From Cymodocea nodosa (lineage: Eukaryota; Streptophyta; Magnoliopsida; Alismatales; Cymodoceaceae), in the NCBI GenBank assembly GCA_036874045.1, contig CM072339.1, forward strand, positions 11,539,501 to 11,603,500: a DNA stretch of 64,000 nucleotides, given 5' to 3'. Positions within the stretch are counted from its first letter, which is position 1. The number at the start of each line of letters is the position of its first letter. This document shows, piece after piece, positions 11,740-57,615 of the stretch. Under the pieces are notes generated by a model. That model was not told where the DNA came from, did not search any database, and worked only from the letters and a program-made list of their open reading frames with translations. Made by a program: the position numbers and the translations under genes.

Positions 11740-12379
11740 TGTAGGATCATTGTATCACAAGAGGGTAGGTGAATTGTGTCTTTAGTAATTAATATTACCA
11801 GCAGATAAAATAAGAGCACAAAACACTCGTAAATAAAATTCTATTCTTTATAAACTTTAAAGAAAGAATTTATAATTTCTTTTCAGCTCAATTCCCTTCT
11901 TGTCGATTTTGATACAATAAAGTCTGATATACAATTCAAATAGAAAATGAAGTCCTTATTCTAAACTAATTTCGAATTGTATAAAACCTGATCTTTATGC
12001 ACATAACTCCTTTTCCTTCTTTTTGCTTAGCTTTTGTATCTTTTCTTCTCTAGTTGTAGAATTTCCAAACTTCTTGCATTTACAGCTCCTTTTTCTGAAA
12101 TTGCTTGAAATTCTGAACTTCTTCTATTGTTGGAGAATTTCTTTAGATATGAATATTTAGACTTGATTTTTGAGATTGAGATTGGGATTGGGATTATTGT
12201 GATATAGCTCATACTCTCTATTTTTAGTAGTCGAACTTTGACTTCACATTCAGCATGTTCATCCACTTAATCCATAATCCATGTATTAATTTTGATTTCA
12301 AATTTTCCTCAATCTCTACTATCTTTTTAAATTTCCACTATGTTTACTTTCTATTTTGAATTTCCACTTTCTCCACTAC
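11740..12379 (-). repeat. Copia B 5' LTR, R/U5 side
   Basis: The LTR starts TGTAGGATC at 11740 and is interrupted by G1 after the ACTAC at 12375-12379. It resumes at 29167. Fragment E at 37625-38420 is a related LTR with the site empty: it reads CTCCACTATCATTTTG where B has G1. Confidence 0.85.
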
Positions 12380-14204
12380 TGTTTAGAATGAAAAAGTACA
12401 TATTATTAACGATTAAATGATGGTTAATTGCATAATATTTAGCTTATCATATGAGAATTAAGCCATTATGTTATAATTGCACTGTTATATGCTTTAATTG
12501 AAGAATCTGCTTAATTTTGGGGAATTAATGTTAATTTAGTACATTTATGAACTGTCGGTAAATTGCAGGCTGTGAAATTCTTAAGTATCCGAAAATGCAT
12601 CTGAGCATCGAATAGTTATACTTGTAACTCTTCAGAATGTTATTTTATGTTTAAACTACTGCTGCCACGTGTTGAGAGCTGGTAGATTTACTTACGTTAT
12701 AACTCGTTAAGTTAGTATAACTGTACGCATTGAGTTACATGAAAATACACTAAGGCAACGCGTTAGGTTAGCGTTATAAACTTAAGTTGTTATTTTTGCA
12801 TGTGTTTTATAGTTAAATCAACGAAGGAAGTCCGTTGAGTTATCTGTAACTCCACGAACTATATATTTTCTAATATACCACTATAGCGGTTGCAAGAACA
12901 GACAGTTGGAAGGAAAAACCACGTTTGCACATATCACGCAGGAATTCAATCGCGTAGGGAGAAAGAAATCATCGCTGTTGATCTGAAGGAAGGAAATCCA
13001 ACCGACCATACAAGCAGAAGCAGTTACCACTGAAGAAATATAAAAGAAAAGAAGAAAAAAAAGAAAGAGTGTGATCGATGGACGGCCAGTGTAGACAGAG
13101 GAGGAGCACCGAGCTTTCTGCAGACAGTATCGGCAATTCTCCAAAGTATCACACCAACCATCGTATCACCACCATAATCACCAATCATCGGAGGTCTGTG
13201 AGGATACTTGCCTGATGTCGGGTCGATTCCGAGCCAAACACAGTGCCTGACAACCACTGTGAGGAGTGATCACGTCGCGGGAAGGGAAGACATTTTCACC
13301 AAGCGCCGACTCATATTTCAGGAGATCGTAAAGCTTTTAGTTTTGGCTTCAAGTTGATGCCTGTATGCTGAAGACGAGATCATCTTGCAATTCTAGACTC
13401 GCGATTCTATAGGGAGAGGAGACAGAATTGTAACTGGTTCAATTTTCAGTGGTGTAATCGCATTGCAAGTAGTGTCAGAAGTATTTACTGTCAAGTGAAA
13501 TTACTTTACATTTCACCTTTTTCCCATCACATCAAAACAAAAATACCAAAAACAAATTATCTTTGTTTGTATGTTGTATTTGAGTGTTGTATTGTTGGTG
13601 TTGTATTGTGATTAATGTTATCTGTATCAGTTTTATGATTGTTTTATGTTAGTTTTAATTTTACAGTTTACTGAAATTGATTCGTACAAAACAACTTAAA
13701 GATTTTAATGGTTAATTAATGTTTGAATCATTTGAATGTTAGTATTGCATAATGATAAATCCAATGTTAACTAGCATTAAAAAGCTTAATTGATGTTATT
13801 TACAATCTGTGGAATCGCCCAATGGTTGGCTGAATTCCTCTGTAATTAGCAGTATTATAAAGAAGAGACAGGCTTGTGGAGTTAACTTAAGTCCACGAGG
13901 ATAGTCCGTTGAGTTAACTGTAACTCAACGGAGTGCTTATTGAATATAAATTTGAATTGTTTATAATCAAACATTTCTTAAATTCGTCAGCAATTCCCTG
14001 TGGGATCGACCTGTACTTGCACACTGATACAATAGACACTATGCACTTGCAGTTAAAGTACAAATTGGAATTAATATCTAAATTGTATTAAAGGTTGTTT
14101 GTTTACTTCTAAAAGAAAGAATAGGCATAAAGATAAATTAACTAAGTAAAAATAGAAGTAACAAATCCAAGTTTTTCTAGTGTAGTGTTGAGAAAACACG
14201 AACA
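12380..14204 (+). repeat. G1 5' LTR
   Basis: The LTR is 1825 bp, from TGTTTAGAATG to ACACGAACA, and 34 bases shorter than the 3' LTR. That difference is one stem-loop unit of the GTTGAGTTA family missing near 13900. The part before 12860 (U3) holds GTTGAGTTA/TAACTCAAC motifs, a CACGTG at 12668-12673 and a 57-base block (12748-12804) shared with Copia C-family LTRs. The middle (13050-13420) is GC-richer than its surroundings. Confidence 0.95.
12860..12867 (+). promoter_or_regulatory. TATA-like box in G1 LTR
   Basis: TATATATT lies directly after a TCCGTTGAGTTA..TAACTCCACG stem-loop and is kept in the 3' LTR (about 27783). It is the likeliest core promoter for the genomic RNA. G2's LTR lacks this stem-loop and TATA segment. 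Confidence 0.45.
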
Positions 14205-14211
14205 AGTTTTA

Positions 14212-14229
14212 TGGCGCCGTTGCCAAGGA
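14212..14229 (+). other. G1 primer-binding site (tRNA-Asp)
   Basis: TGGCGCCGTTGCC begins eight bases after the LTR. It is complementary to the 3' end of plant tRNA-Asp(GTC), with a mismatch in the next bases (AAGGA for GGGGA). A tRNA-Asp primer is typical of Athila-group Gypsy elements. Confidence 0.88.
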
Positions 14230-14327
14230 ATTGAATTGAATTGAACTGAATTGACTAGATATAAACAACTGTTAGAGTTGTTTCATTTTAATAGTCAGAG
14301 TTGTTTTTTTCTTCTGTAATTGAGAAT

Positions 14328-16010
14328 ATGGCATATGCTTATGCTCAAAGATTTCTGAAACATTTAATTAGCATATGTGAATTCTGCAATTCTGAAGGAC
14401 ACAACATTTCTGATTGTTTGAAATTGAGACATTTACAGATTGATAGATCCCATGAACAACAAATGAATTATCCTCAATATAATAGAGCCGAGTATGAGAA
14501 TCCTATAGTTTACCCAACTGATGGTCAGTATAGAATCTGTAATATGATGAGAGACACTGATGTTTGGGATAGCTATGACAGACTAGAGCATAGTATAGAG
14601 CAAAATCTGGACAAACTGGAATACTTTGTCTATCAACAACAAGAAGTCAACCAATTAAACTATAAGGAGGCATATTCAGAACCTAAATAGGATATAATTT
14701 ACGAAACTGAAAAAGCCATAAAGAAAATTGATCAAAAATTGAATGCAATGAAATTAGATGATCTAGAAACAAAATTAAAAGCATTAGACAAAAATGCAAT
14801 GAAAATACAAGTTTTACAATAGGACAATGAAAATTATAATGTTATAAACCTGCACAACTTGCAAAATATACAACAAATAGAAAACACAAATGTAAGAGAA
14901 TTTAAAGAATGCACTTTAAAACTAAAAACAATTGAAGATCATAATCACAAAAATGATATACAAAAACATCATGAAAGTAACGAAAATCTGGACGATGTAT
15001 GTGTAACATTAAGATCTGGAACTGATATACCACCAAGAACTCAAAATGAAAATGATATGAAGGTGGACAAGAGTAAAAATCAAAATGATAATGAAAATGT
15101 AATAGCTGAAAATCTAGAAATCATTGAAGAACAATCTGAATCTGCAATTGAAGCTAAAAATGATCAAACAAATCAACTGAAAGAAAAAGAGTCTTTGAAA
15201 TCAAAATCTTTAGCACCCTATCCTAAAAGATTACAACAAACAATTCCTGAAAAATAAGAAAAAATAAGAGAAATTTTTGAAAAAGTACAAGTTAACATTC
15301 CTTTGTTAGATCTATTGCAGAATATGCCACCTTGTGCTAAATTTCTAAAGGATTGGTGTACTAAGAAAAGAGAGCGAAAAGTTCTTAGAAATGTCTTTTT
15401 AGCTGAGCAAAGTAGTTCCCTATTTCTGCCACAAATTCATAAAAAGTTATTTGATCCTGGAATCCCTGTTATATCATGCACCATAGGAAATACCATTCTA
15501 GAAAGAACCTTAATAGACTTAGGTGCAGGTATAAATGTTATGTCAAGTGATATATTTGCATCTTTAGGATTAGAAGGCTTAACTCCTACTAGTACGGTTA
15601 TTCAATTGGCTGATAGAAGTATAAGATACCCTAGAGGAAAAATAGAGGATGTCTTAATTAAAATCAAGAATTTTATATATCCTATTGATATTGTAATTTT
15701 GGATTCCCAACAAATTAAGCATAAAAATAGTGATACATCTTTAATTTTGGGAAGGCCATTTTTAGCAACATTAGGGGCTATTATAAATTGTAAAACTGGA
15801 GTAATGAAGTTAGCATATGGTAATGAGGATACTCAATTAAATATTTTCAAACCAGAAAGGTTTGAGGAGTTAGAAATGTTCTTACATACCATAGACTTTT
15901 TAGAGGATGAAAGAGATATGTTAGATGATGTGATTCAAGAAGAATTAAATAGGCAAATCAATTCTGAAACTTTAGAAGAAAGTGAAAGCATAAATATAGA
16001 AGGAGATTAG
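14328..16010 (+). pseudogene. G1 zinc-knuckle plus protease ORF
   Basis: The first ATG in frame is at 14328. A CCHC zinc knuckle CEFCNSEGHNISDC comes about 23 codons in, then a Lys/Glu-rich coiled-coil stretch, and a CVTLRSG motif near 15005, which in Athila gag marks the end of gag before protease. The aspartic protease follows with LIDLGAGINVM, IQLADRS and ILGRPFLAT (15510-15790). DLGA, not DTGA, is normal for this clade. No capsid-type gag domain stands before the zinc knuckle, although Athila elements have it there. In-frame stops at 14688, 14819 and 15255 break the ORF; the last is probably a CAA changed to TAA. Confidence 0.88.
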
Positions 16011-16039
16011 GAAGAAATTAATTTAAAAAAGATGATGTT

Positions 16040-17700
16040 CAATTAGGAGCTCTAGCTTCTGATGGGCAGCATTTAGAATTAAAACATTTACCTCCTGAAT
16101 TAACCTATATATTTCTGGAAGATAAACAGACCTATCTAATCATTATTGCTTCAGATTTGAAAGAGGATCAAATAGCTAAATTAAAAGAAGTAATAAAAAG
16201 TTATAAAGAAGCAATAGGATGGACTATGACTGATATAAAAGGGTTAAGTTCAACTTTATGCTGTCACCACATATATTTAGAAGAGAATGCTAAACCTGTT
16301 ACAATTCCTAAGAGGAGATTAAATCCAAACCTTAAGGAAGTAGTCAGGAAGGAAATAGTTAAATGGTTAGATAATGATATAATATATCCGATTTTTGATA
16401 GCTCGTGGGTTAGTCCAATCCATGTAGTTCCCAAGAAATCAGGATTAACAGTTATTAGGAATGAAAGTCAAGACTTGATACCTACTAGAATTCAATCAGG
16501 ATGGAGAGTATGTATAGACTATAGAAAGCTGAATGCTGTGACTAGGAAAGATCATTTTCCCTTACCTTTTATAGATCAAATGCTAGAAAGATTAGTAGGG
16601 CAAGAATATTTTTGTTTCCTAGACGGGTATTCAGGGTATAATCAAATTCCAGTAGCATTAGAGGATCAAGAGAAAACAACTTTCACTTGTCCTAATGGAA
16701 CTTATGCTTTTAAAAGAATGCTATTTGGATTATGCAATGCACCAGCTACCTTTCAAAGGTGTGTGCAAGGCATATTTACTAGAATGACTGATGAATTTTT
16801 AGAAATATTTATAGATGATTTTACTGTATATGGCAACTCATATGAAGTGTGTTTAAGCAATTTAGACCAAATATTAAAATACTGTGTGGAAAAAAATCTG
16901 GTTTTAAATTGGGAAAAATGTCACTTCATGGTTAAACAAGGAATAGTCTTAGGGCATGTTGTTTCTAAAAAAGGGTTGGAAGTAGATAAAGCTAAAATAG
17001 AAGTAATTTCTAATCTACCGAAACCTAAATCAGTAAAAGATATTAGATCATTTCTAGGACATGCTAGTTTTTATTGAAGATTTATTAAAGACTTTAGCAA
17101 GATAGCTAGACCTTTAACTAATTTATTAAAAGATGTTCCATTTAACTTTGATAAAAATTGCAAGGAAGCATTTTTTAGACTTAAGACTAGCTTAATTTCA
17201 ACTCCTATAATTCAAGCACCTAATTGGAACCATCCATTTGAATTAATGTGCGATGCTTCTGATTTTGCTGTAGGAGCAGTGTTAGGACAGAAAATAGAAA
17301 AATCTCGTAGGGTGATTCATTATGCAAGCAAAACCTTAAATGATGCTCAAGTTAATTACACAACTACTGAAAAAGAATTATTAGCTGTTGTGTTTGCTTT
17401 AGAAAAGTTTAGATCATATTTGATTGGAGCTAAAGTAATAGTATACACGGATCATTCAGCTCTAAAACATCTAATAAAGAAAAAAGAAACTAAACCTAGA
17501 TTGATCCGATGGATATTATTATTGCAAGAATTCGATCTAGAAATTAAAGATAAAAAAGGTTGTGAGAATGTAGTAACAAATCATTTATCAAGATTACAAA
17601 TAGAAAAATCAAATATTGAAATTAAGGATAATTTTCCTAATGAACAATTAATGACCATCAACACAATGCCTTGGTATGCAGACATAGTTAATTACTTAGT
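16040..17700 (+). pseudogene. pol: G1 reverse transcriptase and RNase H
   Basis: The ORF is in another frame from the protease, so a frameshift lies near 16010-16040. It shows LELKHLPPELTYIFL and AIGWTMTDIKGLS, which usually precede RT in this clade. RT then shows WVSPIHVVPKKSG, RVCIDYRKLNAVT, FCFLDGYSGYNQI, FKRMLFGLCNAPATFQR and the catalytic FIDDF (about 16810). RNase H follows with [29 protein letters not shown] and [14 protein letters not shown] at 17075 replaces an Arg codon in the FYRRFI block (CGA to TGA, a CpG change). The domains are otherwise well kept. Confidence 0.93.
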
Positions 17701-18973
17701 TACTGGTTTAACACCTAAGGATTGGAATAGACAGGATAAGAAATTGTTTTTCTCAAGAGTAAAATATTACTATTGGGAAGACCTTTACTTATTGAAGAAA
17801 TGTCCTGATCTGGTTTTAAGGAGGTGTGTTCCAGAAACTGAATATTCGAGCATATTGTCTTTCTGTCATGACCAAGCTTGTGGAGGACATTTTGGTTCAG
17901 GGAAAACTACTGTAAAAATTCTGTAATGTGGGTTTTATTGGCCAACACTATTCAAAGATGCTCATAAATATTGCTTAAGTTGTTTAAGATGTCAACAAAT
18001 AGGAAGAATATCAAAGAGGAATATGATGCCTCTTAATCCTATTGTTGAGGTTGAAATCTTTGATGTGTGGGGAATAGATTTTATGGGTCCATTTCCTATA
18101 TCTAATCAATTTAATTACATATTGATGGGAGTGGATTATGTATCTAAATGGATAGAAGCTATTCCTACAAAAACTAATGACAACAAAGTGGTAATACAAT
18201 TTATAAGAACCAATATATTTACTAGATTTGGAATACCTAAAGCTATTATCAGTGATAGAGGAACTCATTTCTGTAATAGAAGTTTTGAAGCCTTAATGAA
18301 GAAATATGGAGTAAACCACAAAATTGCAACATCATATCATCCGCAAACAAGTGGACAAGTAGAAAGTGCAAACAAACAAATTAAATTAATCTTGGAAAAA
18401 GTAGTAAATCCTACTAGAATAGATTGGGCTAATAGATTGATTGATGCACTTTGGGCTTATAGAACTGTTTATAAAATGAGCTTAGGTATGTCACCTTTTA
18501 GGCTAGTATATGGAAAAAGTTGTCATTTACCTGCTGAAATAAAACATAAAGCTTATTGGGCATTAAAAACTCTAAACACTAATTTAAATCAAGCTGCTGA
18601 AAATAGGAAAATGCAACTAATTGAATTAGAAGAATTTTGAAATGAAGCTTATTCAAAGATCGTAAGAGAAAAAGAGAAAATGAAATTCTGGCATGATAGA
18701 AAAATTATTTCTAAAAACTTTGAAATAGGACAAGAAGTATATCTTTATATGGTTAGACTCCATAACCATCCAGGAAAATTAAGATCTAGATGGGTAGGAC
18801 CTTACATAGTTCGAAATGTTTATCCTTATAAAGCTATTGAAATTAAAAATCCTAAAAATCAGAATATATTTAAAGTAAATGGACAAAGACTTAAACCTAT
18901 TCTGAAAACACCAAAAAGCTCCTTTGGAATTATAGAAGAAATCAGAGTAGAGGACTACTCGAGTTTTACTTAA
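17701..18973 (+). pseudogene. pol: G1 integrase
   Basis: The His-Cys zinc finger ([10 protein letters not shown] .. CLSCLRCQ) spans about 17868-17995. The core catalytic triad is seen as GIDFMGPF, ISDRGTHFCN and SGQVESANK (about 18075, 18250, 18355). The C-terminal GPYIVRNVYPYKAIEI block follows and the frame ends SSFT-stop at 18973. There is no chromodomain, as expected for Athila/Tat. Stops occur at 17924 (CAA to TAA when compared with G2) and 18638 (AGA to TGA). The next ORF begins 700 bases downstream. Confidence 0.93.
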
Positions 18974-18988
18974 GAAATCAGTTTTTAT

Positions 18989-19026
<38 letters not shown>

Positions 19027-19669: not shown

Positions 19670-21892
19670 ATGATGAAGATGACGCCTGAATTCTGGGAAG
19701 ATGTTGTTGATACATCAGAATTTCTGAAGGAATCAGAAGAGTAGCACACGCAGTAGAAGATCAGAAATACGACAAGAGAGAAAAAGCTACAGAAGGTAGA
19801 ATCAGAACTTTTCATGTTGAGAAGAGATTTAGTAGATATGGATATACGAATACCTCAAATAATGGAAACACAAATCAGAATAGCAACAGAAATAGCTGTA
19901 AGTAAGGAAAGACAAATAAGGCCAAGTAATGAAGTTGCCCTAGAATTAATCCAACGTAAGTCCCAACTCTGGTTCAAAAGACGAATCGGTAGACAAGCTA
20001 AACGGGTGATTTGGGAGCAAGAAAGGAAAGCAAATGAAAAGGCAATTAAAGAACGGGAGGAACCAACTACTGAAAGACCTGTTCTTGAGGAGTAGTAGTC
20101 TGGACCTTCAGTTCCACCATTTAAGCCATTGACATGAGCAGAAATGATGGGGCCTTCGACTAAAGAAGAAATAAGAGAATTTGCAGAACTAATTCAAGTT
20201 GGAAAAAATCAAGGAGAATTAGAAGATTTGGTAGTGGCTAAAGCACATCTGGTGTTTGATGTACTGTACAAAAAGAGGGTTGTAGAAAAGTTGAAAGCCC
20301 AATATAAAATTAAAGTGGAACAACATCAAGAAGCTACCGCCAGAACTACTGTTAGAGATGCTGCAAAAGAAGCTGAAGTTGGTCCTCCGAGACCAACAAT
20401 TATTGGAAGAATTAAACAGGAAGAGCTAGTACCTATGGTTCGAAAGCCTGCAGAGCCTATTTTTGTAGATTTAATTTCAGAAGATGAAGAGGAAGAACAA
20501 GCACAACTAATCAGAAAAAAGAAAGAAAAAGAAAAAGTGTCTGATTATAAAGAAATTAAATCTGAAGTACCAATTTTTACAAGGCCTGTGGAGTAGATTT
20601 TTATTAACCTGCTATCCGAATCTGAGGAGGAGCAGGAGGAGCAAAGAAAAGAAAAAAATCAAGCTGAAATTAGTTTGCATCCTGTACAAGAAGAAACAGA
20701 AATTAGGGTAGAAACTAAATTGCCCGTGACTCCATCCCAATCTGTTACAAAATCAGAAAGAACAGTAATAGAATAGATTGGTAGTCAGGAGGAAGAAGAA
20801 AGAGTAGAAAATGAAGAGGCTGAAAGAAGCCATTTGGACAAAAATAATTTCACAGATTCCACTGAAGAGCAAGAAACTCTTCAGCAAATTATGGAAAGAA
20901 TTCAAGACAGAGTGGAGAGTTCTACCGGCTCACCACCACAGACAGAAGCAAAAGTAAAAATTCAGGAATCTGAAGAGAATGTCCAAATGCAGCCTATGCT
21001 AGAGGAAGAGCAAGAGTAAACCCCTCTAGAGCAACAAAGTCACCTTCCTGACCCGACTGAAACAACAATTTTGAATGAAATACATTTTTGTAGTTAGGAA
21101 GCTTATATCAAATACCAAGAAATAAGGGGTTACGATATTATTTACAGTAGACCAGTAAATTGGGATGGAATGCAAGAAATCAAAGATCTATTTGAATTCC
21201 AAGGTCTACTGCAATTTATATCTCAAGATAGAGGGCATGCAGTATATGAGAATTTAGTGCCCTGTTTCTATGCAAATTTAAGAGAAGGAAAATTAATTTC
21301 AAACGTGGAGGAAGCTGATGTATAGATAACACCAGAGCTTCTCCACAACATATTTGGTTTAAAGAATGAAGGAACAAAAATTTTGGAGGATACAACTACA
21401 GTTGAATAGACTGAGCATCAAATTAAGGATTGTTTAGCTATCAATCTTGGTGTGCCATTATTAAACAGATTGAAGCATTTAAATGGTAAAGCACACATGG
21501 TAGATAACATTCTAATTAAGAATGTCTATCAACGACAAGGCCATGACATAGAATTAAGTCAATTTGTCAAATGGGCCACGTATGCAGTTGTAAATAAGAT
21601 CCCAATAAATTGGTTTGTAGTTTTTATCTCCAAGTTGAAAATAGTAAAGAAGAAATTATTTTATGGAGATTTGATTCCATTGTTGATGGTGGATAGTATT
21701 GATTTCACTAAATGGACATCAAAAAGGTTAAGATCTAGAACCATTTCAGTGAAAGAATATAGAAATTTTGTAGCTGTAGAATTAGCTGTACCTTCTGGAG
21801 AAATTGCAGGAGTAGTAGAGAGGATAAATCAATTAGAGCAGCAATTAGAAAAACTCCAGAAGGAAGTAGATGAACTTAGGCATAGAGATTAA
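19670..21892 (+). pseudogene. G1 coiled-coil ORF in env position (plant transposon protein type)
   Basis: The ORF starts at 19670 or 19673 and keeps one frame for about 740 codons. Many stops interrupt it (about 19742, 19757, 20090-20095, 20594, 20774, 21017, 21095, 21324, 21408). Visible parts are an N-terminal MKMTPEFWEDVVD block, a long Glu/Lys-rich coiled coil, an acidic middle, and a C-terminal domain with LFEFQGLLQFIS, LVPCFYANLREG, DVxITPELLHNIFG and GVPLLNRLKHLNGKAH. That domain resembles the putative plant transposon protein domain (Pfam PF20167) from memory, not from a search. Most stops are Gln or Trp codons in G2 or G3. It stands where Athila elements have env-like ORFs; no clear membrane segment is seen. 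Confidence 0.78.
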
Positions 21893-22662
21893 ATTGTATT
21901 GTTCGTCTACTTGTGTAAAATTGTATGAAATTGTATGATGTACTTGTAATGTAATTGATTCATATTAATGAATATAATTTTTCAGATGTAATTTTCATAC
22001 TTATTTGAATGTGAAATGAATAGAATTTATTGAATATTATGTAATTTGTGGAACTTTATGAATATGTAACAGATTTACAATTTGCTGAATGACAAGATAA
22101 CTGCTTAAAAATTTCTGCATGTTATAAGGTAAAATGTAAATTCTGCATAACATAAAATGACTTGCAATTTAAATCTTTATATAATGTTCAGATTTAAATG
22201 TATTTTAATCAAAATGAGGCATTAATGACATAGATTTAACTTTATTACAGTTAGTAGAATGACAAAGAAAAAAAAAAAAAAAAAAAACAGAATAGAAAAC
22301 TTACGAGAGTGAAACCTAGAAGTTGCCAAGTGTTAACTCAACAAAGTAATTCCGTTGAGTTAACCGTAACTCCACGAGGTCAATAATATAATATAAGGTC
22401 ACTCCGTTGAGTTATTTATAACTCAACGAAGTTAGTCCGTGGAGTTAGCAACAGTAACCGACTATGTTCTGTTGAGTAATCTGTAACTCAACGAGGTTAG
22501 TTCCTGGATTAAAAAGACGGTTATTCTTTTAACCACAAACGAAACTTCATCGGTTTAGCGGTTACCAAAAATTTGAAATTAGTAGTGGTACACGTACCCA
22601 TTAAAATAGGAACCACGATACACGTTGCAAGACACATTCTTTCAACGAGATTTATTCACTTT
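21893..22662 (+). other. G1 noncoding spacer with stem-loops
   Basis: AT-rich DNA with an A run at 22268-22287 and three or four GTTGAGTTA/TAACTCAAC stem-loops between 22330 and 22510. No domain is seen in the ORF-like stretch before the ATG at 22663. G2 keeps the same spacer at 59330-60093. Confidence 0.6.
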
Positions 22663-24190
22663 ATGGATGCGCAGTATATATATGAAACAGAATGTTATTT
22701 ACGAGTTACCAGCACTTTTAAGAGAAAGGAGAAAGCGTTGGAGGAACTAGAAGGAGAAGCAGCTGATTCAACCTTCATCCGACAACAAATATTTATAGAA
22801 TGGAAAGCTTCAAACTGGTATGTAATTAATCTTCTGTTATTTATTTATGAGCACATGGACTCGTTCTCTAAGCACTAAACGATTAGTAAGAACACCTATC
22901 TAGGAATTTTCATTGCAGAGGGGTACTGAAAAATTTTCTGAACTGAACTTTAACGAAATTCTTTGGGGTGTAGCTAACCTTTCTTTAAAAGAGAATGTAG
23001 AGATGGTTGCTCTAGTAGAAAAACCATTAGGAGAGATTCTGTATCTTGAATTAATTGATGAACCTTCACGTATTCGATTGCCAAACTTTGAGGGAGATAG
23101 GTTTGAACTGAAATCTAATTATATTAGTCAATTGCCACATTTTCATGGATTAGAAAGAGAGGATGCCTATTATTTCCTTAGAGAATTTAACGAAGTTTGT
23201 CAAATGATGAGAATTCCGAACATGAGTATAGATGCTATTAAACTTAGATATATCCCTTCTGCTTTAAAAGATACAGCTAAGAGATGGTTATATACTCTAT
23301 CGCCTGATTCAATTTCTACATGGACTGAATTTTGCTCTGTTTTTCTGGAAAAATACTATCCAACACATCAAACGATTAAAAAGAAGAAAGAAATATTAAT
23401 GTGTAGCCAAAAACAGGGTGAATCATTCTGGAAATATTTTGAAAGATTTAAAGATTTACTGACTCAATGTCCACATCATGCAATGAGTAAAGCACAATTA
23501 ATAGGTATAATTTATGAAGGCATAGATGTTTCAACGAAATTTTTATTAGAATCTACTTGTCAAAATGGATTTTTAAAATTATGTAGTGAAGAAGCATGGG
23601 CATATTTAGAAAATTTTGCAAAAAGAACTGCAAAGTGGGAAAATTCGGCTGAAGCTATTGCAGATAAAAGATTATTGCCAAGAGGAATGCATGAAATAGA
23701 TTCCAATACTATGCTTGAGGTGAAATTAAATGAATTAACAAAGAAAATAGAAGAGTTATCATTAAATCAAAAGCTAGCAGAAAAGAATACAAACATAAAT
23801 GACTTAGATATTATTTATGCTAGAAACCAGAGAGATAAGTTGGGAAATTCTTATAATCCTAATTAGAGAAATCACCCGAATTTATCTTGGAGAAACAACA
23901 ATTTCCAGGGAGGAGAAAATATAAATGAGAAGAACATAAGTTATGAAGTATTAATTGAACAAGGAGCTAGAATAGAGAAATTAGAAAAGATAATCCAACA
24001 AGTAAACAATCATCTAGAATTTATATTTGGAAATGCTGTAAATCAAAATCAGAATAGAAATATACCACTTAGACAAAAGGAACCAATGGAAGTTAGACCT
24101 ACTGGAGGATTGCCAATACAAGCTATACCTAATCCTGTCAATAGAATGGTTAATGAAATTGATACCTCTTCTGGGAGGGCAGTTGAATGA
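22663..24190 (+). pseudogene. gag: G1 capsid-type gag, placed after pol, with a putative intron
   Basis: Exon 1 (22663-22817) runs from an ATG to ..EWKASNW. A putative intron 22818-22920 starts GTATGT and ends TTGCAGAG; splicing joins TG|G in frame to GTEKFSELNF. Exon 2 has no early ATG, so it needs the upstream exon. It shows a Retrotrans_gag domain: FLREFNEVCQMM, DTAKRWLYTL, FLEKYYPTHQTIK and QKQGESFWKYFERFK (about 23150-23460). Then come NSYNPN-stop-RNHPNLSW, the Athila motif with Trp changed to TAG at 23864, and GGLPIQAIPNP near the end at 24190. No zinc knuckle is present; it lies in the first ORF of the element. Athila gag normally comes first. Confidence 0.87.
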
Positions 24191-24385
24191 AGCAGCATAT
24201 CTGAAGCAACTATCTATATGTATATATGTTTTTATTTTTATTTTAAGTTAATAGTATCGTAGAGTTAATTTTTAACTCAACGAACTTAGTATGTTGAGTT
24301 ATGCCTTAACTCCACGAGGGTATGCAGTAGTTATGTTAATTTTTGTCTCTACTAAATTTTTGTTTTTATTTTACAGAATCGACAA
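24191..24385 (+). promoter_or_regulatory. Spacer with stem-loop and splice-acceptor-like site
   Basis: A GTTGAGTTA-type stem-loop lies at about 24255-24325. The sequence TTTTTATTTTACAG at 24363-24376 ends nine bases before the F-box ATG and looks like a plant 3' splice site. G2 also has a T-rich run ending ACAG here. Confidence 0.45.
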
Positions 24386-25525
24386 ATGGAATTAATGCAA
24401 TTACCGTTGGATGCACAAAGGGAAATACTAAGTAACTTGTCAACTAAAGATTTGTGCAGGATGTGTTGTGTATCAAAGGAAATTAAAGATTGTATTGAAG
24501 AAAAATATTTTCAGGGACTACAAGCTGCAAAAATGACTAAGATTAGAGGTGGATTTATATGGAGGTCATTTAATCGTAGTTCAAATACCCATGAATATCT
24601 AGCTATGGAAGAAACTATTGGAACTCCACCCAATGCATTAGAAGGAATGAGTCATATTATGGGGATAGATGAAGGATTAATCATATACAAGACGAGACTA
24701 AGGTATGCAAGTTTATCATTACCTGAGATTTTGATAAGAAATCCTATAATAGGAGAAGAATGTAATATAGGAAGACCTAATATATTTGAAGCACCAACTG
24801 AAAATTGTGGGTCAACTTTAATATTTTCTGATAAAAATTCTGCAATTCCTGAAAAATTATATTATTGGAGACCTACAGGAAATTAGGGTGAAGATTTACG
24901 CTTAAGTATGTATAATTTTCTGAACAGATCTTGGAATGAAAACATTATAATATATCTAGGACAAAAATCATTAATTAACCAAACACATGTCATACTTGAT
25001 GGTTATATTTATTTAGTCATGGAGAAATCAATAGCATATAGATCTGATTTATACATAGTAAGCATAGATAGTTATGATGATTATACAGAAATTTTACCTA
25101 TATCGAGTGAAATAGCTAAACCACCATCTGAAAAATTTAATAAAATTCAAATAGGAATGTGGTATAATGAAAAAGATGATCCTACTTTATGTCTGATAAG
25201 ATGGTGGGATGAACTGATGAAATTTCAAATATGGATTATGGAAGACATGAATGAATGGAAGTGGGAAGAGGAGTATATTGAAATAGATGTAGAAATAGAA
25301 ACTGCTACATTACCTTGGAACCAAAAAGGATCCCTTTCTGCATTACATATCATTAATGGTAATACACTCGTATTTGGAATTTATAATATATTGCATGTTT
25401 ACAAATTAAAAAGGACCAAGAACTGCATTAAAATAGAATTAATAGCAAGAAGAACTATGCCTAAAAAGTTTGCTTGGACTGATACATTTATTCCATTTGT
25501 TTCTACTTTTCAATCATGTTCTTAA
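24386..25525 (+). pseudogene. F-box/F-box-associated protein carried by G1
   Basis: An intronless ORF of 379 codons has one stop, at 24884, a TGG to TAG change as G2 has Trp there. Residues 5-40 fit an F-box: LPLDAQREILSNLSTKDLCR, then CVSKEIKDCI. The rest fits an F-box-associated region: GGFIWRSFNRSS, ILIRNPIIGEE, YNFLNRSWNEN, LCLIRWWDELMKFQIWIMED, GNTLVFGIYN and FIPFVSTF. Known plant F-box proteins bind SKP1 in SCF ubiquitin ligases through the F-box; the partner bound by the C-terminal part cannot be told. It lies between gag and the 3' LTR in both G1 and G2. Capture of a host gene copy by an ancestor is the likeliest origin. Except for single lesions the frame is intact in both copies. 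Confidence 0.9.
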
Positions 25526-25959
25526 GCTGTGATTTTGTGTGTTTAATGTTGTGTATTCTGCATTTATTTTTTTTAAAAAAAAAAAGAATTTTGAAGTTTT
25601 TCATGTTCATTTTATAAAAAAAAAAAAAAAAAAAAAACGAAACAAAATATCAATCCAGTTTGTTGGTATCTGTTCTGGGAAACCAACTAGCTTTCTTGTG
25701 AGCCACCAAAGGCATAGAAGCTTGGGTTCCACACAAGACACTGATTTATTAATACCTGTTAAATGTTATTTTGTTTTATATTCTGTGTTTATCTAGGAAT
25801 GAAAAGTTTTTCAGAATGAAAAATCGAAATATGTAGAAAGAGATACAAATGGAACAAGGTATGTAACCAATTACTTATCTTGAATTTTAAATCAAACAAA
25901 ACTTTATTCATGCCTGCTACAATTACTGTACTTATTGTCAAATCTTTTACATTGAGGAC

Positions 25960-25986
25960 AATGCAAAATGTAGGTATGGGGGGGAG
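25960..25986 (+). other. Internal polypurine-like site
   Basis: A TTGAGGACAATG stretch is followed by GTAGGTATGGGGGGGAG. The true polypurine tract at 27302 is preceded by nearly the same TTTAGGTATGGGGGAAG. It is kept in G2 (56024-56055) and, weaker, in the 38.4-39.9 kb copy (39063-39100). It may prime a second plus strand or mark an old element end. Confidence 0.5.
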
Positions 25987-27289: not shown

Positions 27290-27302
27290 GGTATGGGGGA
27301 AG
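27290..27302 (+). other. G1 polypurine tract
   Basis: GGTATGGGGGAAG directly abuts the TG of the 3' LTR at 27303. It is the normal plus-strand primer of LTR elements. Confidence 0.85.
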
Positions 27303-29161
27303 TGTTTAGAATGAAAAAGTGCATATTATTTACGGTTAAATGATGCTTAATTGCATAATATTTAGCTTATCATATGAGAATTAAGCCATTATGTTATAAT
27401 TGCACTGTTATATGCTTTAATTGAAGAATCTGCTTAATTTTGGGGAATTAATGTTAATTTAGTACATTTATGAACTGTCGGTAAATTACAGGCTGTGAAA
27501 TTCTTAAGTATCCGAAAATGCATCTGAGCATCGGATAGTTATACCTGTAACTCTCCGGAATGTTATTTTATGTTTAAACTGCTACTGACACGTGTTGAGA
27601 ACTGGTAGATTTACTTACGTTATAACTCGTTAAGTTAGTATAACTACACGCGTTGAGTTACATGAAAATACACTAAGGCAACGTGTTAGGTTAGCGTTAT
27701 AAACTTAAGTTGTTATTTTTGCATGTGTTTTATAGTTAAATCAACGAAGGAAGTGTGTTGAGTTATCTGTAACTCCACGGACTATATATTTTCTAATATG
27801 CCACTGTAGCGGTTGCAGGAACATACAATTGGAAGGAAAAACCACGTTTGCACGTATCACGTAGGAATTCAATCACGTAGGGAGAAAGAAATCATCACCA
27901 TTGATCTGAAGGAAGGAAATCCAACCGACCATTCAAGTAGAAGTAGTTACCACTGAAGAAATATAAAAGAAAAGAAGAAAAAAAAAGAAAGAGTGTGATT
28001 GATGGACGGCTAGTGTAGACAGAGGAGGAGCACCGAACTTTCTATAGATAGTATCAGCGATTCTCCAAAGTATCACATGAACCATCGTATCACCACCATA
28101 ATCACCAATCATCGAAGGTCTGTGAGGATACTTGCCTAATGTCAGGTCGATTCCAAGCCAAACACAGTGCTTGACAACCACTATGAGGAGTGATCGCGTC
28201 GCAGGAAAGGAAGACATTTTCACCAAGCGCCGACTCATATTTCAGGAGATCGTAAAGCTTTTAGCCTTGGCTTCGGGTTGATGCCTGTATGCTGAAGAGG
28301 AGATCATCTTGCAATTCTAGACTCGCGATTCTATAGGGAGAGGAGACAGAATTGTAAGTGGTTCAATTTTCAGTGGTGTAATCACATTGCAAGTAGTGTC
28401 GGAAGTATTTACTGTCAAGTGAAATTACTTTACATTTCACCTTTTTCCCATCACATCAAAACAAAAATACCAAAAACAAATTATCTTTGTTTGTATGTTG
28501 TATTTGAGTGTTGTATTGTTGGTGTTGTATCGTGATTAATGTTATTTGTATCAGTTTTATGATTGTTTTATGTTAGTTTTAATTTTACAGTTTACTGAAA
28601 TTGATTCGTACAAAACAACTTAAAGATTTTAATGGTTAATTGATGTTTGAATCATTTGAATGTTAGTATTGCATAATGATAAATCCAATGTTAACTAGCA
28701 TTAAAAAGCTTAATTGATGTTATTTACAATTTGTGGAATCGCCCAATGGTTGGCTGAATTCCTTTGTAATTAGCAGTATTATAAAGAAGAGACAGGCTCG
28801 TGGAGTTAACTTAAGTCCACGAGGATAGTTCGTTGAGTTATCCATAACTCAATGAACTTAGTCCGTTGAGTTAACTGTAACTCAACGGAGTGCTTATTGA
28901 ATATAAATTTGAATTGTTCACAATTAAACATTTCTTAAATTCGTCAGCAATTCCCTATGGGATCGACCTATACTTGCACACTGATACAATAGACATTGTG
29001 CACTTGCAGTTAAAGTACAAATTGGAATTAATATCTAAATTGTATTAAAGGTTGTTTGTTTACTTCTAAAAGAAAGAATAGGCATAAAGATAAATTAACT
29101 AAGTAAAAATAGAAGTAACAAATCCAAGTTTTTCTAGTGTAGTGTTGGGAAAACATGAACA
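27303..29161 (+). repeat. G1 3' LTR
   Basis: An 1859-bp LTR, TGTTTAG to GAACA, followed by ACTAC at 29162-29166. It has one more GTTGAGTTA stem-loop than the 5' LTR (about 28828-28862). The TATA, CACGTG and the 57-base shared block (27676-27733 area) are kept. Confidence 0.95.
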
Positions 29162-29760
29162 ACTACCATTTTGAATTTTCATGATTTCCACTCGTAGATG
29201 CACTGAAACTTTATTGTCCTGAAGATTTGTAGAATATCTTCTAAGTCTTCATTTTAGTTGAACACTTATCCTTTAAGTCCTGTAAAAACTCAAACACTTA
29301 TCTATAACTCTTCGAGTTCTTGCACCTACAAAACACATGACTGAACAAAGAAAACTTATTTGTTTGTTAGTCATTTTATAAAACTCAAACAATTATCTAT
29401 CCATGCGTATAAAAACTCGAACAGTTATCTAACTCTTTGATTTTCATTATCGAACTTAAATGGAAAATATGTGAAAACTTAAAACATTAAAAACACACAT
29501 GTAGATAACTTAAATATACAAGTTTTTAACATAACTCTTCCACTAAATCGAAACGTTAACTATCCGAAAGTTTAACTATCTGAAAATCTAACTATCCAAA
29601 AACTTTAACTATCCAAAAATCTAACTATCCGAAATTTTAAATGAAACTTTCTGATAACTTGTCAATATTTAATTACATGACTATTATACTTAGAAAATAT
29701 TATTTAGACATATTTATAAACTTTAATAATGCATTCATCATCAAAAAAAAATTCCTAACA
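29162..29760 (-). repeat. Copia B 5' LTR, U3 side
   Basis: This is the continuation of 11740-12379 after G1. It has AACTATCCGAAA motifs in series (29560-29645), in U3 as in element A. The end ..TTCCTAACA at 29760 is chosen by comparison with C-family LTR starts; total LTR length would then be about 1.23 kb. Confidence 0.75.
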
Positions 29761-37357: not shown

Positions 37358-37557
37358 CAAAAGTCCAAGTATGATATGGAGTTGTGATTAACACTCTAGG
37401 ATTGCTAATTGTGCCATAATTTGAAATCAATTGACTGAAAAAATACTTTTATCTTATATTTCCAATAGCCATAATTACTACCTTCAAACATAGGAGGATG
37501 AGTAGTAGTCTGTCCTTTAGTCATTATCAGAATTTCATTGTTTGAAATATTAGCCAT
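37358..37557 (-). pseudogene. gag: Copia E gag N-terminal fragment
   Basis: The ATG is at 37557 (minus strand), followed by EILIMTKGQTT, PPMFEGSNYGYWKYKIKVF and FKLWHN, the Copia gag N-terminus as in B and C. It is cut at 37358. Confidence 0.78.
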
Positions 37558-37608
37558 TTTAAATGATGATCCTAACTTATGAAAGAAAGAAAACTGATTC
37601 TTAAACTT

Positions 37609-38420
37609 TTGCTTTAATACCAATTGTAGGATTGTAGTATCACAAGAGGGGTGAATTGTGTCTTTAGAAATTAAAAAATTTCTAGCAGATAAAACAAGAG
37701 CACAAGACACTTACAAATATAACTCTAATCTCTATTGACTAAAAGAAAGAATTTACAGTCATTTTTCAGCATAATTCCCTACTTATCGGTTCTGATATAA
37801 TATAGTCTGAGATACAATTCAAAGAGAAAATAAGTACCTTATTCTAATATTGTTTGAATTTTATAATCAAACCTGAGCCTTTGTATGTAGTTTTTGATTC
37901 TTTAGATTTTCTTTTCTTTTGCTCAACTTCTATATCTCTTCTTCTTCTATCTTCGAATCTCCTAGACTTCTTACATTGCAGCTCTTTTTTGAATTTGCTT
38001 GGGATTTGAACTTTCTCTAATGTTGGAGAATTTTTGGGATGATTGTAGTGTAGCTCGTACCCTTTATTTATAGTAGTAGAACTACAACTTCACATTCAAT
38101 ATGTTCATCCACTTAATCCATAATCCCATGTACTAATTTAAATTTAAATTTTCCACGATTTCCACTATCTTCTTGAATTTCTACTATCTCCACTATCATT
38201 TTGAATTTTCATGATTTTCTATCATAGAACAATTGAAAATTCTTCTTCTTAGAGATTTGTAGAATATCTTCTAAGTCACCACTTTAGTCGAATACTTATC
38301 ACTTAAGACCTGTAAAAACTCAAACACTTATATGTAACTCTTCGAGTTCTTCCACCTACAATACACATGACTGATAATAACAAAACTTATCTATTTGTTA
38401 GTTACTTTATAAAACTCGAA
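37609..38420 (-). repeat. Copia E primer site and 5' LTR, truncated
   Basis: The primer site is 37609-37622 (TTGGTATTAAAGC on the minus strand). The LTR starts at 37625 TGTAGGATTG and matches the Copia B 5' LTR along its length. It includes an uninterrupted version of the place where G1 entered B. Similarity stops at about 38420. Confidence 0.82.
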
Positions 38421-38448
38421 CAATTACATAGACTGACATGTTTAGCAT

Positions 38449-38544
38449 GCAAATATCATAGAAGTAGAATTACAAGTTAGAAGGGAGATGCCTAAAGGTT
38501 TTGCATGGAATGACATGTTTATCCCATTTATCACTACTTTTTAA
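38449..38544 (+). pseudogene. Third F-box protein tail (C-terminal 31 codons)
   Basis: Residues EVELQVRREMPKGFAWND then MFIPFITTF and TAA match the C-terminus of the G1 and G2 F-box proteins, with many substitutions. It is followed by the same 3' module. It shows an older or diverged member of the F-box-carrying family. The rest of the gene was lost at the junction with the LTR of E. Confidence 0.82.
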
Positions 38545-39925
38545 TCATGTTTTTAAACTGTATTCCTGTATGATGCATTTATTATTGCATTTATGAAGAA
38601 AAAAACTTTAGTGTAGATCATTATTATTTTTTGTTTACATTTTATTTTTTTTACAAGGAAAAAATAAAATTGAAAGAAAATTTTTATCATCAATCCAGTT
38701 TGTTGGTATCTATTCTGAGAAACCAACTAGCTTGCTTGTGAACCACCAAAGGCATAGGAGCCTAGGTTCTACACAATGCTTATATATAAAACTATATGTT
38801 TTACTTTTTATTTGTTATATTGTTATATGTTTTACTTTTACTTGGTGAAAAAAAGATTTATCAGGAACAAAAGTCGAAAGACAGTAATGAAGGTACAAAA
38901 ATACAAGGTATGTTACTTAATTACCTTTTTTGAAATTAAAATCTTGTGTAGTTTGTGGAGTTAAGTACTAACTCAATGAACTAAGTTCATTGACTTAATT
39001 ATTAAGCCAACGAAGTCAATTTATCATGCTTGCTATCATGTACTACATATTTTGTTAATCTATTACATTGAGGATAATGTAAAATATAGGTATGGAAGAG
39101 AGGTAATTAGATTAAAATCAAATTAAATCTTGTCATTTGTAGGAATTAGGATTGTGTTGCAATTTTCTAAAGAATTTGATAAATTTTTATGAATTTTGCT
39201 GAAACTATTTGAAAATTTATTAGAAACCTTCTGAAAATTGAAGCTATCTGAAAATTTATTAGAAACCTTTCGAAAGTTAGTTGAAACCTTTTAAACAATT
39301 GTATACCTAGATTATTGTAGAGGATACAATATATTGGTAGTAAAGCTTTATAGTATCTTATGTTTCTCCTGAGTTTTATGAGTTTAATGGTTTTGCAATT
39401 TTAAATGGAAATTAGTATGCTTAATAGAAAATCAAAATTTGTTTGAAATCCTAACATATTGAATTGTTGATTTTTAGATTGAATGAAATGCATATGATCA
39501 AGGATAAATTTAACTTGATTGATTAAATTTGTAGAATGATTTATGTGTAAATCATATTGAACTACCAGTAAAAAGTATGAGCTTCTTGAGATTGATTCAT
39601 ATTTTTAGTAGATCATAGAAGCAAGATTATATGAGATTTGTGCTTTATTGAATCTGTATTGATGAAATACACATATACTATGTTGAAGAGAAAAAAATGA
39701 GGCTTATAAAGTGAAGATCTTTGAGAGTTTATTGATTTGTTTGATCATGAGTCTTTTGTACTTGAGCATATAGTTTTGTAAGAATTGTTGACCTGATAAA
39801 GGACTCTTTAAATCTAGCAACCTAAGGACTTAACAAAACTTGGGATTGTTGATTTAAAGCTCGTTACATGGGTACATTAGAAAGCTCCTATATGATTCAA
39901 GCTTTTCAAACTAACTTTTAAAGTA
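38545..39925 (+). other. Gypsy 3' noncoding module, third copy
   Basis: It matches 25526-26780 in order: CAATCCAGTTTGTTGGTATC, the AACCACCAAAGGCATAGG block, the TTGAGGATAATG/GGTATGG site (39063-39100) and the conserved 190-base element (39731-39925). It breaks off at 39926. Confidence 0.8.
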
Positions 39926-44759: not shown

Positions 44760-44762
44760 TTT

Positions 44763-52491: not shown

Positions 52492-54723
52492 TGGTTGGTT
52501 TTTCCAACACTACACTAGAAAAACTTGGATTTGTTACTTCTGTTTTTTCTTAGTTAATTTATCTTTATGCCTATTCTTTCTTTTAGAAGTAAACAAACAA
52601 CCTTTAATACAATTTAGATATTAATTCTAATTTGTACTTTAATTGCAAATGCATAGTGTCTATTGTATTAGTGTGCAAGTACAGGTCGATCCTACAGGGA
52701 ATTGCTGACGAATTTTAGAACTGTTTGATTGTTAACAATTCAAATTTATATTCAATAAGCACTCCGTTGAATTATAGTTAACTCAACAGACAAAGTTCGT
52801 TGAGTTATGGCTAACTCAATGGACTATTCTGGTGGACTTAAGTTAACTCTATGAGCCTGTCTCTTCTTTATAATATTACTATTTACAGAGGAATTCGGCC
52901 AACCATTGGGCGATTCCATAGATTGTAAATAACATCAATTAAGCTTTTTAATGCTAGTTAACATTGGATTTATCATTAAGCAATACTAACATTCAGATGA
53001 TTCAAATAGTAACCATTAAAATCTTTAAGTTTTTTTGTACAAACCAATTCAGTAAACTGTAAAATTAAAACTAACATAAAACAATCACAAAACTGATACA
53101 AATAACATTAATCACGATACAACACTCAAATACAACATACAAACAAAGATAAATTGCTTTTGGTATTTTTGTTTTGATGTGAAGATGGAAATGGGCGAAA
53201 GGTGAAATGTAAAGTAATCTCACTTAACAGTAAATACTTCCAACACTACTTGCAACGCGATTACACCACTGAAAATTCTGTCTCCTCTCCCTATAGAATC
53301 GCAAGTCCAGAATTGCAAGATAATCTCCTCTTCAGCATACAGGCATCAACCTGAAGCCAAGGCTAAAAGCTTTACGATCTCTTCAAATATGAGTCGGTGC
53401 TTGGTGAAAATGGCTTCCCTTCCCGTGACGCGATCACTCCTCACAGTAGTTGTCAGGCACTATGTTTGGCTCGGAATCGACCCGACATCAGGCAAGTATC
53501 CTCACAGACCTCCGATGGTTGGTGATTATGGTGGTGATAACGATGGTTGGTGTGATACTTCGGAGAATCACCGATACTGTCTGTAGAAAGCTCGGTGCTC
53601 CTCCTCTGTATACACTGGCCGTCCATCGATCACACCTTTTTTTTTTCTTCTTTTCTTTTATATTTCTTCAGTAGTAACTACTTCTACTTGAATGATCGGT
53701 TGGATTTCCTTCCTTCAAATCAACAGCGATGCTTCCTTCTCCCTACGCGATTGAATTCCTATGTTATACGTGCAAACGTGGTTTTTCCTTCCAACTGTCC
53801 TGTTTCTGCAACCGCTATAGTGGCATTTTGGAAAATAACTATAAAATACATGCAATAAAGAAATAAGCCACTAACATACCGCGTTACCTTAGTATATATT
53901 CGTGTAACTCAACGTGTACATTTATGCTAACTTAATGAGTTAAACATGTGCATCTCACATGATATTCTAAAGCATTTAAATTCAACATGTGCATAAATCT
54001 AACTATCCGATGCTTAGGTGCATTTCGGATACTTATAAACTTAACTCACCGATATATAACTTAAGTAAATCTACCAGATCTCGACACGTGTCAGCAGTAG
54101 TTTAATCATAAAATAACATTTCGGAGAGTTACAGGTCTAACTATCTGATGCTCAAATGCATTTCAGATAGTTACAGCTAACTCAACGAAAATCCACTTAA
54201 GTCACTTACCCAGAACATGACACGTGTCCTCAGCTATTTTATAAATAAAAAGAGATTTTGGAGAGTTACAGGGATAACTCCCTGATGCTCAGCTGCAATT
54301 TCGGATAGTTATAGATAACTCACCGAAAGTTCACTTAAGTCATTCATTCTAGTTTCGACATGCGTACTTCAGGAAATAATAAAATATTCTCTCAAAACAT
54401 AATTGTTCGGCAATTTAAACATAACTATCCAATACATATTCGGTCTGTTAAACATAACTGTCCGAATTTGTTCGGTATGTTAAACATAACTGTCTGAAAT
54501 ATCAGAATATTCGAATACTTAAGAATTTTACAGCCTGCATCTTACCGACAGTTGATAAATGTACTAAATTAACATTAATTCCCCAAAATTAAGCAGATTC
54601 TTCAATTAAAGCATATAACAGTGCAATTATAACATAATGGCTTAATTCTTATATGATAAGCTAAATATTATGCAATTAACCATCATTTAACTGTTAATAA
54701 TATGCACTTTTTCATTCTAAACA
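52492..54723 (-). repeat. G2 3' LTR, with enlarged U3
   Basis: 2232 bp on the minus strand from TGTTTAGAATG (54723) to the CCA end at 52492. It is 370-400 bases longer than the G1 LTRs. The extra DNA lies in U3 (about 53990-54545) and consists of CCGATGC, TTCGGATAGTTA and TTCGGTATGTTAAAC stem-loop units with two GACACGTGTC sites (54080, 54217). It lacks the stem-loop and TATATATT found at 12835-12867 of G1. Confidence 0.9.
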
Positions 54724-56476: not shown

Positions 56477-57615
56477 TTAAGAACATGATTGGAAAGCAGA
56501 CACAAATGGAATAAATGTATCAGTCCAAGCAAACTTTTTAGGCATAGTTCTTCTTGCTATTAATTTTGTTTTAATGTAGTTCTTATTCCTTCTTAATTTG
56601 TAAACATGCAATATATTATAAATTCCAAATACGAGTGTATTACCATTAATGATATATAATGTAGAAAGGGATCCTTTTTGGTTCCAGGGTAATGTAGCAG
56701 TTTCTATTTCTACATCTATTTCAATATACTCCTCTTCCCACTTCCATTCATTCATGTCTTCCATAATCCATATTTGAAATTTCATCAGTTCATCCCACCA
56801 TCTTATCAGACATAAAGTAGGATCATCTTCTTCATTATACCACATTCCTATTTGAATTTCATTAAATTCTGCAAATGGTGGTTTAGCTATTTCACTCGGT
56901 ACAGGTAAAATTTCTATATAATCATCATAACTGTCTATGCTCACTATGTATAAATCAGATCTATGTGCTATTGATATCTCTATGACTAAATATATATATC
57001 CGTCAAGTATGACATGTGTTTGGTTAATTAATGATTTCTGTCCTAGATATATTATAATGTTTTCATTCCAAGATCTGTTTAGAAAATTATACACACTTAA
57101 GCGTAAATCTTCACCCCAATTTCCTGTAGGTCTCCAATAATATAATTTTTTAGGAATCGCAAAATTTTTATCAGAAAATATTAAAGTTGACCCACAATTT
57201 TTAGTTGGTGCTTCAAATATATTAGGTCTTCCTATATTCCATTCTTCTCCCGTTATAGGATTTCGTATCAAAATATCAGGTAATATTAAACTTGCATACC
57301 TTGGTTTCGTCTTGTATATGATTAATCCTTCATCTATCCCCGTAATATGATTTATTCCTTCTAATGCATTGGGTGGAATTCCAGTAGTTTCTTCCATAGC
57401 CAGATATTCATGGGTATTTGAACTACGATTAAATGACCTCCATATGAATCCATCTTTAATCTTAGTCATTTGTGTAGCTTGTAGTCCCTGAAAATATTTT
57501 CTTCAATACAATCTTTAATTTCCTTTGATACACAATACAGCCTGCACAGATCTTTAGCTGACAAATTACTTAATACTTCTCTTAGTGCATCCAATGGTAA
57601 TTGCATCAATTCCAT
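56477..57615 (-). pseudogene. F-box/F-box-associated protein carried by G2
   Basis: ATG at 57615 on the minus strand; the ORF is 1139 bases against 1140 in G1. A single base is missing in the A run at about 57491-57503 (four A where G1 has five), which puts the F-box out of frame with the rest. From 57469 the remaining 330 codons are open to the stop, with Trp where G1 has a stop (PTGNWGEDLRL). F-box residues LPLDA .. VLSNLSAKDLCR and CVSKEIKDCIEE are clear. G1 and G2 carry different single lesions, so their common source had an open F-box frame. Confidence 0.9.

Follow-up and report, generated by a model that had tools for sequence, protein, structure and literature searches.

How does a long F-box open reading frame (ORF) come to lie inside an LTR retrotransposon, and is it a working gene of that element or a captured fragment that rides along? 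The question is raised by a 64,000-nucleotide stretch of the Cymodocea nodosa genome (the window), in which the ORF occupies 24386-25525 on the + strand, with 379 codons plus a stop and one in-frame TAG at codon 167. An earlier note had placed it behind gag and ahead of the 3' LTR in an element termed G1, and both coordinates and frame proved to be as described.

G1 is a complete Ty3/gypsy, Athila-like LTR element of 16,782 bp, bounded by a 5-bp target-site duplication (TSD). Besides the TSD it has two TG..CA LTRs, a primer binding site (PBS) and a polypurine tract, as expected of an LTR retrotransposon, and its reverse transcriptase (RT) and RNase H precede the integrase, the order by which Ty3/gypsy elements are recognised. 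A second copy, G2, is inverted and runs past the window end, with its 5' end outside the window. The features are as follows.

12375..12379, no strand: left TSD, ACTAC, identical to the five bases at 29162-29166
12380..14204, +: G1 5' LTR with TG..CA ends
14212..14224, +: PBS, TGGCGCCGTTGCC, starting seven bases past the 5' LTR
14295..16007, +: 5' part of the polyprotein; aspartic protease just under the cut-off, zinc knuckle weak and sub-threshold, internal stops in G1
16022..18970, +: RT, RNase H and integrase, with single stops within the G1 copy
19757..21889, +: downstream ORF region, the label 'env-like' reflecting its position alone
22513..22817, +: open exon preceding intron A, without Pfam match
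22818..24376, +: intron A, GTATGT...TTTTACAG, containing the gag capsid
22904..24187, +: ORF of the gag capsid, matching Retrotrans_gag at 2e-20 and interrupted by one stop in G1
24216..24376, +: intron B, a shorter alternative with the same acceptor as intron A
24386..25525, +: F-box ORF, 379 codons
27290..27302, +: polypurine tract, GGTATGGGGGAAG
27303..29161, +: G1 3' LTR
29162..29166, no strand: right TSD, ACTAC
37358..38426, +: paralogous empty site corresponding to the G1 insertion, 73% to the left G1 flank and 84% to the right
38452..39925, +: deeper-subfamily remnant, F-box C-terminus (64% amino acid identity over 33 residues) and 3' region
52498..54723, -: G2 3' LTR, interrupted by an unmatched stretch and diverged in its last few bases
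56480..57615, -: G2 F-box ORF, one one-base gap (frameshift) near codon 38, otherwise without stop codon
58131..59080, -: G2 gag capsid, with stops and one frameshift

The pol domains of G1 matched Pfam RVT_1 (3e-29), RT_RNaseH (3e-38) and rve (2.5e-16), and the K2P distance between its LTRs is 0.043 (1823 aligned sites). The PBS is presumably of the tRNA-Asp type. A tRNA-Asp PBS five bases past the LTR is described for Diaspora and Calypso (PMC1142308). The 1.8 kb between the F-box ORF and the 3' LTR of G1 holds no ORF of 100 codons. The empty site matches both G1 flanks with no element between them and reads ACTAT at about 38192-38196. The gapped match between G1 and G2 covers 17831-29154 and breaks off no more than about ten bases from the end of the LTR, the pattern expected of two insertions. 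At 52498, the final bases of the G2 3' LTR differ from those of G1, and the 3' flank is unmatched. One short motif, a palindrome based on GTTGAGTTA...TAACTCAAC, was seen by eye and in short BLAST matches at several places in the LTRs, ahead of gag and within the intron preceding the F-box (about 12820-12860, 13885-13935, 22320-22510, 24255-24320 and 28792-28890) and is perhaps a control signal. Elsewhere in the window lie Copia-type fragments at 4015-7636 (-) and 42495-47783 (+); Pfam Retrotran_gag_2 and Pol_BBD match within 6269-7636, and the remaining Copia assignment was made by eye.

The components of G1 run in the order 5' LTR, weak zinc knuckle, protease, RT, RNase H, integrase, downstream ORF region, Pfam-less exon, gag capsid, F-box and 3' LTR. 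The capsid domain was found only at 22904-24187, after the integrase and inside the GT-AG intron A, and Pfam detected no gag capsid domain in the three scanned pieces of 14295..16007. In another copy (L005) the capsid ORF is open across the 434 codons covered. Gag is unusually split, with the capsid after pol and just a weak zinc knuckle in the scanned 5' polyprotein pieces. G1 departs from the GAG-PROT-RT-RH-INT order expected of the Athila clade, an order given for 8453 Ty3/gypsy polyproteins, with GAG not reliably identified in 159 (PMC6317226). PF03078 (Athila ORF-1) was unmatched in the scanned downstream ORF pieces of G1 and G2, the G2 counterpart giving a weak, sub-threshold PF20167 match. 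PF03078 is present in 16% of Athila elements (PMC6317226) and is not required of members. Since the capsid follows pol, against the published GAG-first order, we name G1 Athila-like rather than filing it as Athila. Its placement by that clade is one we take from resemblance in sequence. Like Athila4, Calypso, Diaspora, Bagy-2 and Cyclops-2, G1 has the RT, RNase H and integrase domains, a primer site just past the LTR and an extra ORF region after pol. Unlike them, it carries its capsid in an intron after pol rather than before the protease and an F-box gene ahead of the 3' LTR, and its scanned pieces show no PF03078 match. A gag lying in an intron after pol bears on how the amounts of Gag and Pol are set.

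The Pfam F-box (PF00646) covers residues 4-41 of the G1 ORF with an E-value of 5.4e-10 when the frame is read through its stop. In G1 and its relatives it scores 39-43 bits against a cut-off of 20.5; it exceeds that cut-off in all five open relatives and in 3 of the 15 members of the set A2, as many as contain the N-terminus. The C-terminal domain is at best an FBA_1, sub-threshold in two of the five open relatives (E 0.048 and 0.069), and Pfam matched no FBA domain in the G1 ORF. Of the 'F-box/FBA gene' proposed in the earlier note, the F-box half therefore stands and the FBA half is weakly supported. Two AlphaFold2 runs on the F-box protein gave mean pLDDT values of 31.7 and 34.2, too low to be informative, and the F-box call rests on Pfam. 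Among solved structures there is no full-length relative, and the N-terminal 53 residues matched best, at E 0.11, to F-box only protein 4. A set of 5.8 billion proteins yielded no F-box homologue with a single sequence (E 1e-3) or an alignment (E 0.01), and viral contigs no match for the F-box, integrase or gag; as both sets are presumably poor in plant sequences, these negatives say little. An S-locus F-box cluster was dropped as a candidate because the F-box sits within LTRs, and a gag/F-box fusion because the gag frame terminates ahead of intron B. The description of the ORF as nearly open in both copies is accurate, with one TAG (codon 167) in G1 and one frameshift near codon 38 in G2.

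The unspliced start of the F-box gene was counted genome-wide with a 34-base pattern spanning the acceptor and the F-box start, allowing at most 3 mismatches. It occurs at 985 genomic places, and the reversed control at none. In a genome search with the F-box ORF, the best 40 of 4336 candidates were all at least 97% identical and full length or nearly so. We fetched 30 loci, the best matches to G1; the F-box frame is fully open in 11 and not open in 19. End stretches were taken from seven elements, six of which (L006, L023, L018, L015, L005 and L014) were readable at both ends and each carried its own perfect 5-bp TSD; the seventh, L004, has no 5' LTR within its fetched stretch. With G1 included, the perfect, mutually different TSDs number seven out of seven. 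A tree built from G2 and 29 of the 30 loci (all except L003) is star-like and poorly resolved, with a median end branch of 0.015, which points to one burst; L009 and L021 are set apart in it, and both have deletions in the stretch used. In another copy, L030 (38-4140), an internal deletion joins positions equivalent to 20288 and 24055 of the window; it takes out part of the downstream ORFs along with most of gag, and the F-box frame is open. The 985 starts and the independently inserted elements bear out the claim that the ORF belongs to the family and is not one dead transduced copy. Segmental duplication, the alternative named at the outset for its presence in both window copies, is rejected by the same count and by the element-specific TSDs.

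Deeper subfamilies, at about 50-85% amino acid identity, also carry the F-box gene. One was reached by a genome search with the remnant at 38452-39900, whose first 99 bases are F-box sequence, with the best 40 of 6762 candidates scored. F-box sequence is present in each of the 12 loci taken from it, in variously broken frames and at 42-74% amino acid identity by piece, mostly 50-65%. The gag C-terminus precedes the F-box in five (L037, L038, L040, L043, L044) and the F-box is cut short in four (L033, L034, L041, L042); L035, L036 and L039 have room for gag and gave no gag match at E 1e-3, which we count against the proposal set out below. The position of the F-box ATG reads TTG or TTA in all seven deeper copies read there (L035, L037, L038, L040, L043, L044, L060), four of which have a Met three codons downstream. 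A genome scan with PF00646, with the best 150 of 4219 candidates scored, led to 11 loci being read, namely 4 top matches and 7 picked for long open frames. Ten (L059-L068) match the element F-box, at 53-85% to L004, and gag precedes the F-box in all four with longer flanks (L059-L062). The eleventh, L069, does not match the element F-box; it is an F-box gene of host type that also matches beta-propeller and kelch domains. A look at other family members, as the earlier note had suggested, thus recovered the gene across copies and deeper subfamilies, and its suggested look for the closest host F-box gene returned no parent among these 11 loci from the best 150 of 4219 candidates.

Selection on the F-box frame was assessed from fixed differences between two subfamilies, represented by 31 rows (the 30 loci and G2) and 11 rows (L034-L044). 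The differences comprise 42 synonymous, 66 nonsynonymous and 2 stop changes against a neutral expectation of 18.8, 80.7 and 10.5; none of 3000 neutral placements gave as high a synonymous excess, and the three codon positions hold 33, 24 and 53 changes. The omega-like value is 0.33-0.41 under looser and stricter cut-offs. The adjoining noncoding stretch behaves neutrally in all three frames (P 0.34-0.85; 27 and 11 rows), and the gag C-terminus shows 9/11/1 against 3.8/15.8/1.4 expected (21 and 5 rows). These counts demonstrate purifying selection on the F-box frame between subfamilies, where a dN/dS near 1 throughout can accordingly be rejected. Omegas of 0.19-0.38 are published for Athila gag and env (PMC2410132); the F-box value, a different kind of estimate, lies at or just above the top of that range. 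Five open relatives at 78-85% amino acid identity, picked for long frames, gave pairwise NG86 omegas of 0.27-0.70 among themselves and against L004. Within the G1 burst (30 loci and G2), private changes are neutral (45/154/14 against 42/154/16 expected) and shared variants show a weak signal (24/53/4 against 16/58/7, P 0.016). The G1-G2 pair gives an NG86 omega of 0.49, with a stop shortage at P 0.025 and a synonymous excess at P 0.17 against neutral placement, and was not taken as proof of selection; known coding pieces in the same pair range from 0.35 to 1.5. The dN/dS comparison that had been called for among copies is therefore positive between subfamilies, without clear signal in the window pair alone, and neutral for private burst changes. 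With private changes neutral and 19 of the 30 copies not open, most copies look dead. The 985 places and the selection on the frame between subfamilies confirm, at the level of sequence, that the F-box ORF in the element is real and beyond chance.

Introns A and B share an acceptor nine bases upstream of the F-box ATG. Intron A is missing to the base in 4 of the 30 fetched loci (L006, L013, L018, L023), where the exon ending at 22817 directly precedes the F-box, and intron B is precisely missing in one (L015). Genome-wide, junction A occurs at 203 places and junction B at 13, with 0 for the controls; junction A is also found in L065, a relative at 85% amino acid identity from a second subfamily. 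The spliced L006, L018 and L023 (A) and L015 (B) have LTR ends and their own TSDs, and L006 and L023 retain pol and the downstream ORF region upstream of the junction (L031, L032). The acceptor AG is retained in 13 of 15 unspliced relatives read, the exceptions being L059 and L063. The intron B donor reads GT in 14 of the 19 readable copies among the 30, and AT in five, including G1. The T content is 48% in intron B and 31% in both the F-box exon and the whole of intron A; the intron A value, like a crude donor scan that listed neither donor A nor donor B, counts against our preferred explanation. A second acceptor-like site just ahead of gag (22907-22918, TTTTCATTGCAG) could join the upstream exon to gag via an intron of about 100 bases. 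The F-box gene is most likely expressed through alternative splicing. Family-wide presence, selection, the splice acceptor and integrated spliced forms together mark it as an element gene, and we conclude that it is a fixed gene of this retrotransposon family which, to judge by the genomic record, is made by splicing.

We propose that an Athila-like family captured an F-box gene before its present subfamilies diverged and retained it as a working element gene. Unspliced RNA would keep gag, and splicing from the upstream donor would drop gag and place the F-box ATG shortly after the exon junction. Because donor-A splicing both removes gag and positions the F-box ATG, splicing would set which of the two is made. 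The F-box protein may join host SKP1/CUL1 as an SCF substrate receptor, and its C-terminal part would bind a target whose removal benefits the element. By analogy, a host silencing factor is the likeliest single class of target, though at well under even odds; turnover of the element's own Gag, or of another host restriction factor, would be alternatives. The anti-silencing role, suggested by viral F-box proteins such as P0, is the least certain step and stays an inference. As a whole, comprising capture, retention, the splicing choice and an SCF role, we regard the proposal as reasonably probable. A wider version is possible but doubtful, in which the lineage recruited a ubiquitin-ligase adaptor of host type for counter-defence, splicing switches between capsid and adaptor, and capsid-less, adaptor-bearing elements spread via helper particles, so that the adaptor would be common to cooperating and cheating elements.

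Other readings of the spliced forms have to be weighed. Introns A and B might have been lost, to the base, by ordinary DNA deletion, and further deletions do occur in the family (L009, L021, L030). However, each loss begins precisely at a GT and ends at an AG, the two have one acceptor in common and separate donors, they recur at 203 and 13 places and in a second subfamily (L065), and all four such elements with both ends read carry their own TSDs; a single deletion spread by transposition could reach many places but would not produce a GT-AG fit two times over. Deletion does not explain this pattern and we consider it very improbable, and the elements lacking exactly one GT-AG stretch are best read as reverse-transcribed, integrated copies of spliced element RNA. 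How often this happened is less clear-cut. The spliced-A class could be a gag-less lineage of single origin that multiplied by parasitising gag-bearing copies, and not the outcome of many separate splicing events; 203 places is many, and barley BARE2 is a gag-less parasite of BARE1 (PMC3735527). On the other hand, the four spliced-A copies are ungrouped in the star-like, poorly resolved tree, A and G variants both stand beside the junction among the matches listed, and the junction is present in another subfamily. We give this single-origin reading somewhat less than an even chance.

The proposal that the F-box gene works for the element faces two further rivals. Captured once, the gene could simply ride along and be useless to the element, and this would fit the 19 of 30 copies that are not open, the neutral private variation within the burst, the absence of a clear signal from the two window copies and the deeper subfamily, in which all seven copies read lack the ATG where it is expected. 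Such a passenger is already strained by purifying selection between subfamilies beside a neutral noncoding control, by the five fully open relatives at 78-85% amino acid identity (among seven loci picked for long frames) and by the splice acceptor retained in 13 of 15, and we hold it to be quite improbable. The protein might instead act within the element, controlling the amount of Gag or other element proteins, or when they appear, and not host silencing. One pre-RNA contains both the F-box exon and gag, which donor-A splicing removes, and integrated spliced-A copies without gag would need to borrow Gag; yet the sequence gives no pointer to Gag as a substrate, and this version seems unlikely.

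LTR elements with additional ORFs are a known kind, and the F-box ORF resembles their env-like ORFs as a sense extra ORF kept family-wide, but it differs in encoding a recognisable host-type F-box; the term F-box appears 0 times in the main texts of the two papers compared on such elements. Host genes captured by LTR elements are exemplified by Bs1 of maize and by cases in sorghum and rice. For Thlaspi arvense, a single LTR-borne F-box-family gene that subsequently underwent tandem duplication is described (PMC8764390). All of these share with G1 a host-type gene within an LTR element, whereas here the gene occupies about a thousand places in several subfamilies with selection between them. 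Among the matches listed in the open-licence PMC literature (titles, abstract starts and selected passages), no retrotransposon family with a fixed F-box gene is reported. Any likeness to virus- or element-coded counter-defence would be one of function only. Polerovirus P0 is a viral F-box protein directed against AGO1, and the VANC proteins, the best-known element-coded anti-silencing proteins, belong to DNA transposons. To our knowledge, the resistance of plant retrotransposons to silencing is largely an open subject, for which an F-box protein encoded by a retrotransposon and held under purifying selection offers a candidate that can be tested.

In the alternative splicing of its RNA, the family resembles BARE1, Ogre, CRR and the env of Bagy-2 (PMC3735527), and packaging of spliced RNA has been proposed as a one-step route to env loss (PMC1142308). 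DNA copies of spliced BARE RNA, as reported in the same BARE source, could not be amplified from barley DNA (PMC3735527), whereas the spliced junction is here integrated at 203 places. The integrated spliced copies hence provide a genomic record, sought for BARE and not found there (PMC3735527), of splicing and of the origin of capsid-less elements. In summary, some two hundred integrated spliced junctions are an uncommon by-product of a known kind of element, and what is new is the combination of a gag capsid placed after pol within a GT-AG intron, an acceptor before the F-box exon, and integrated spliced forms.
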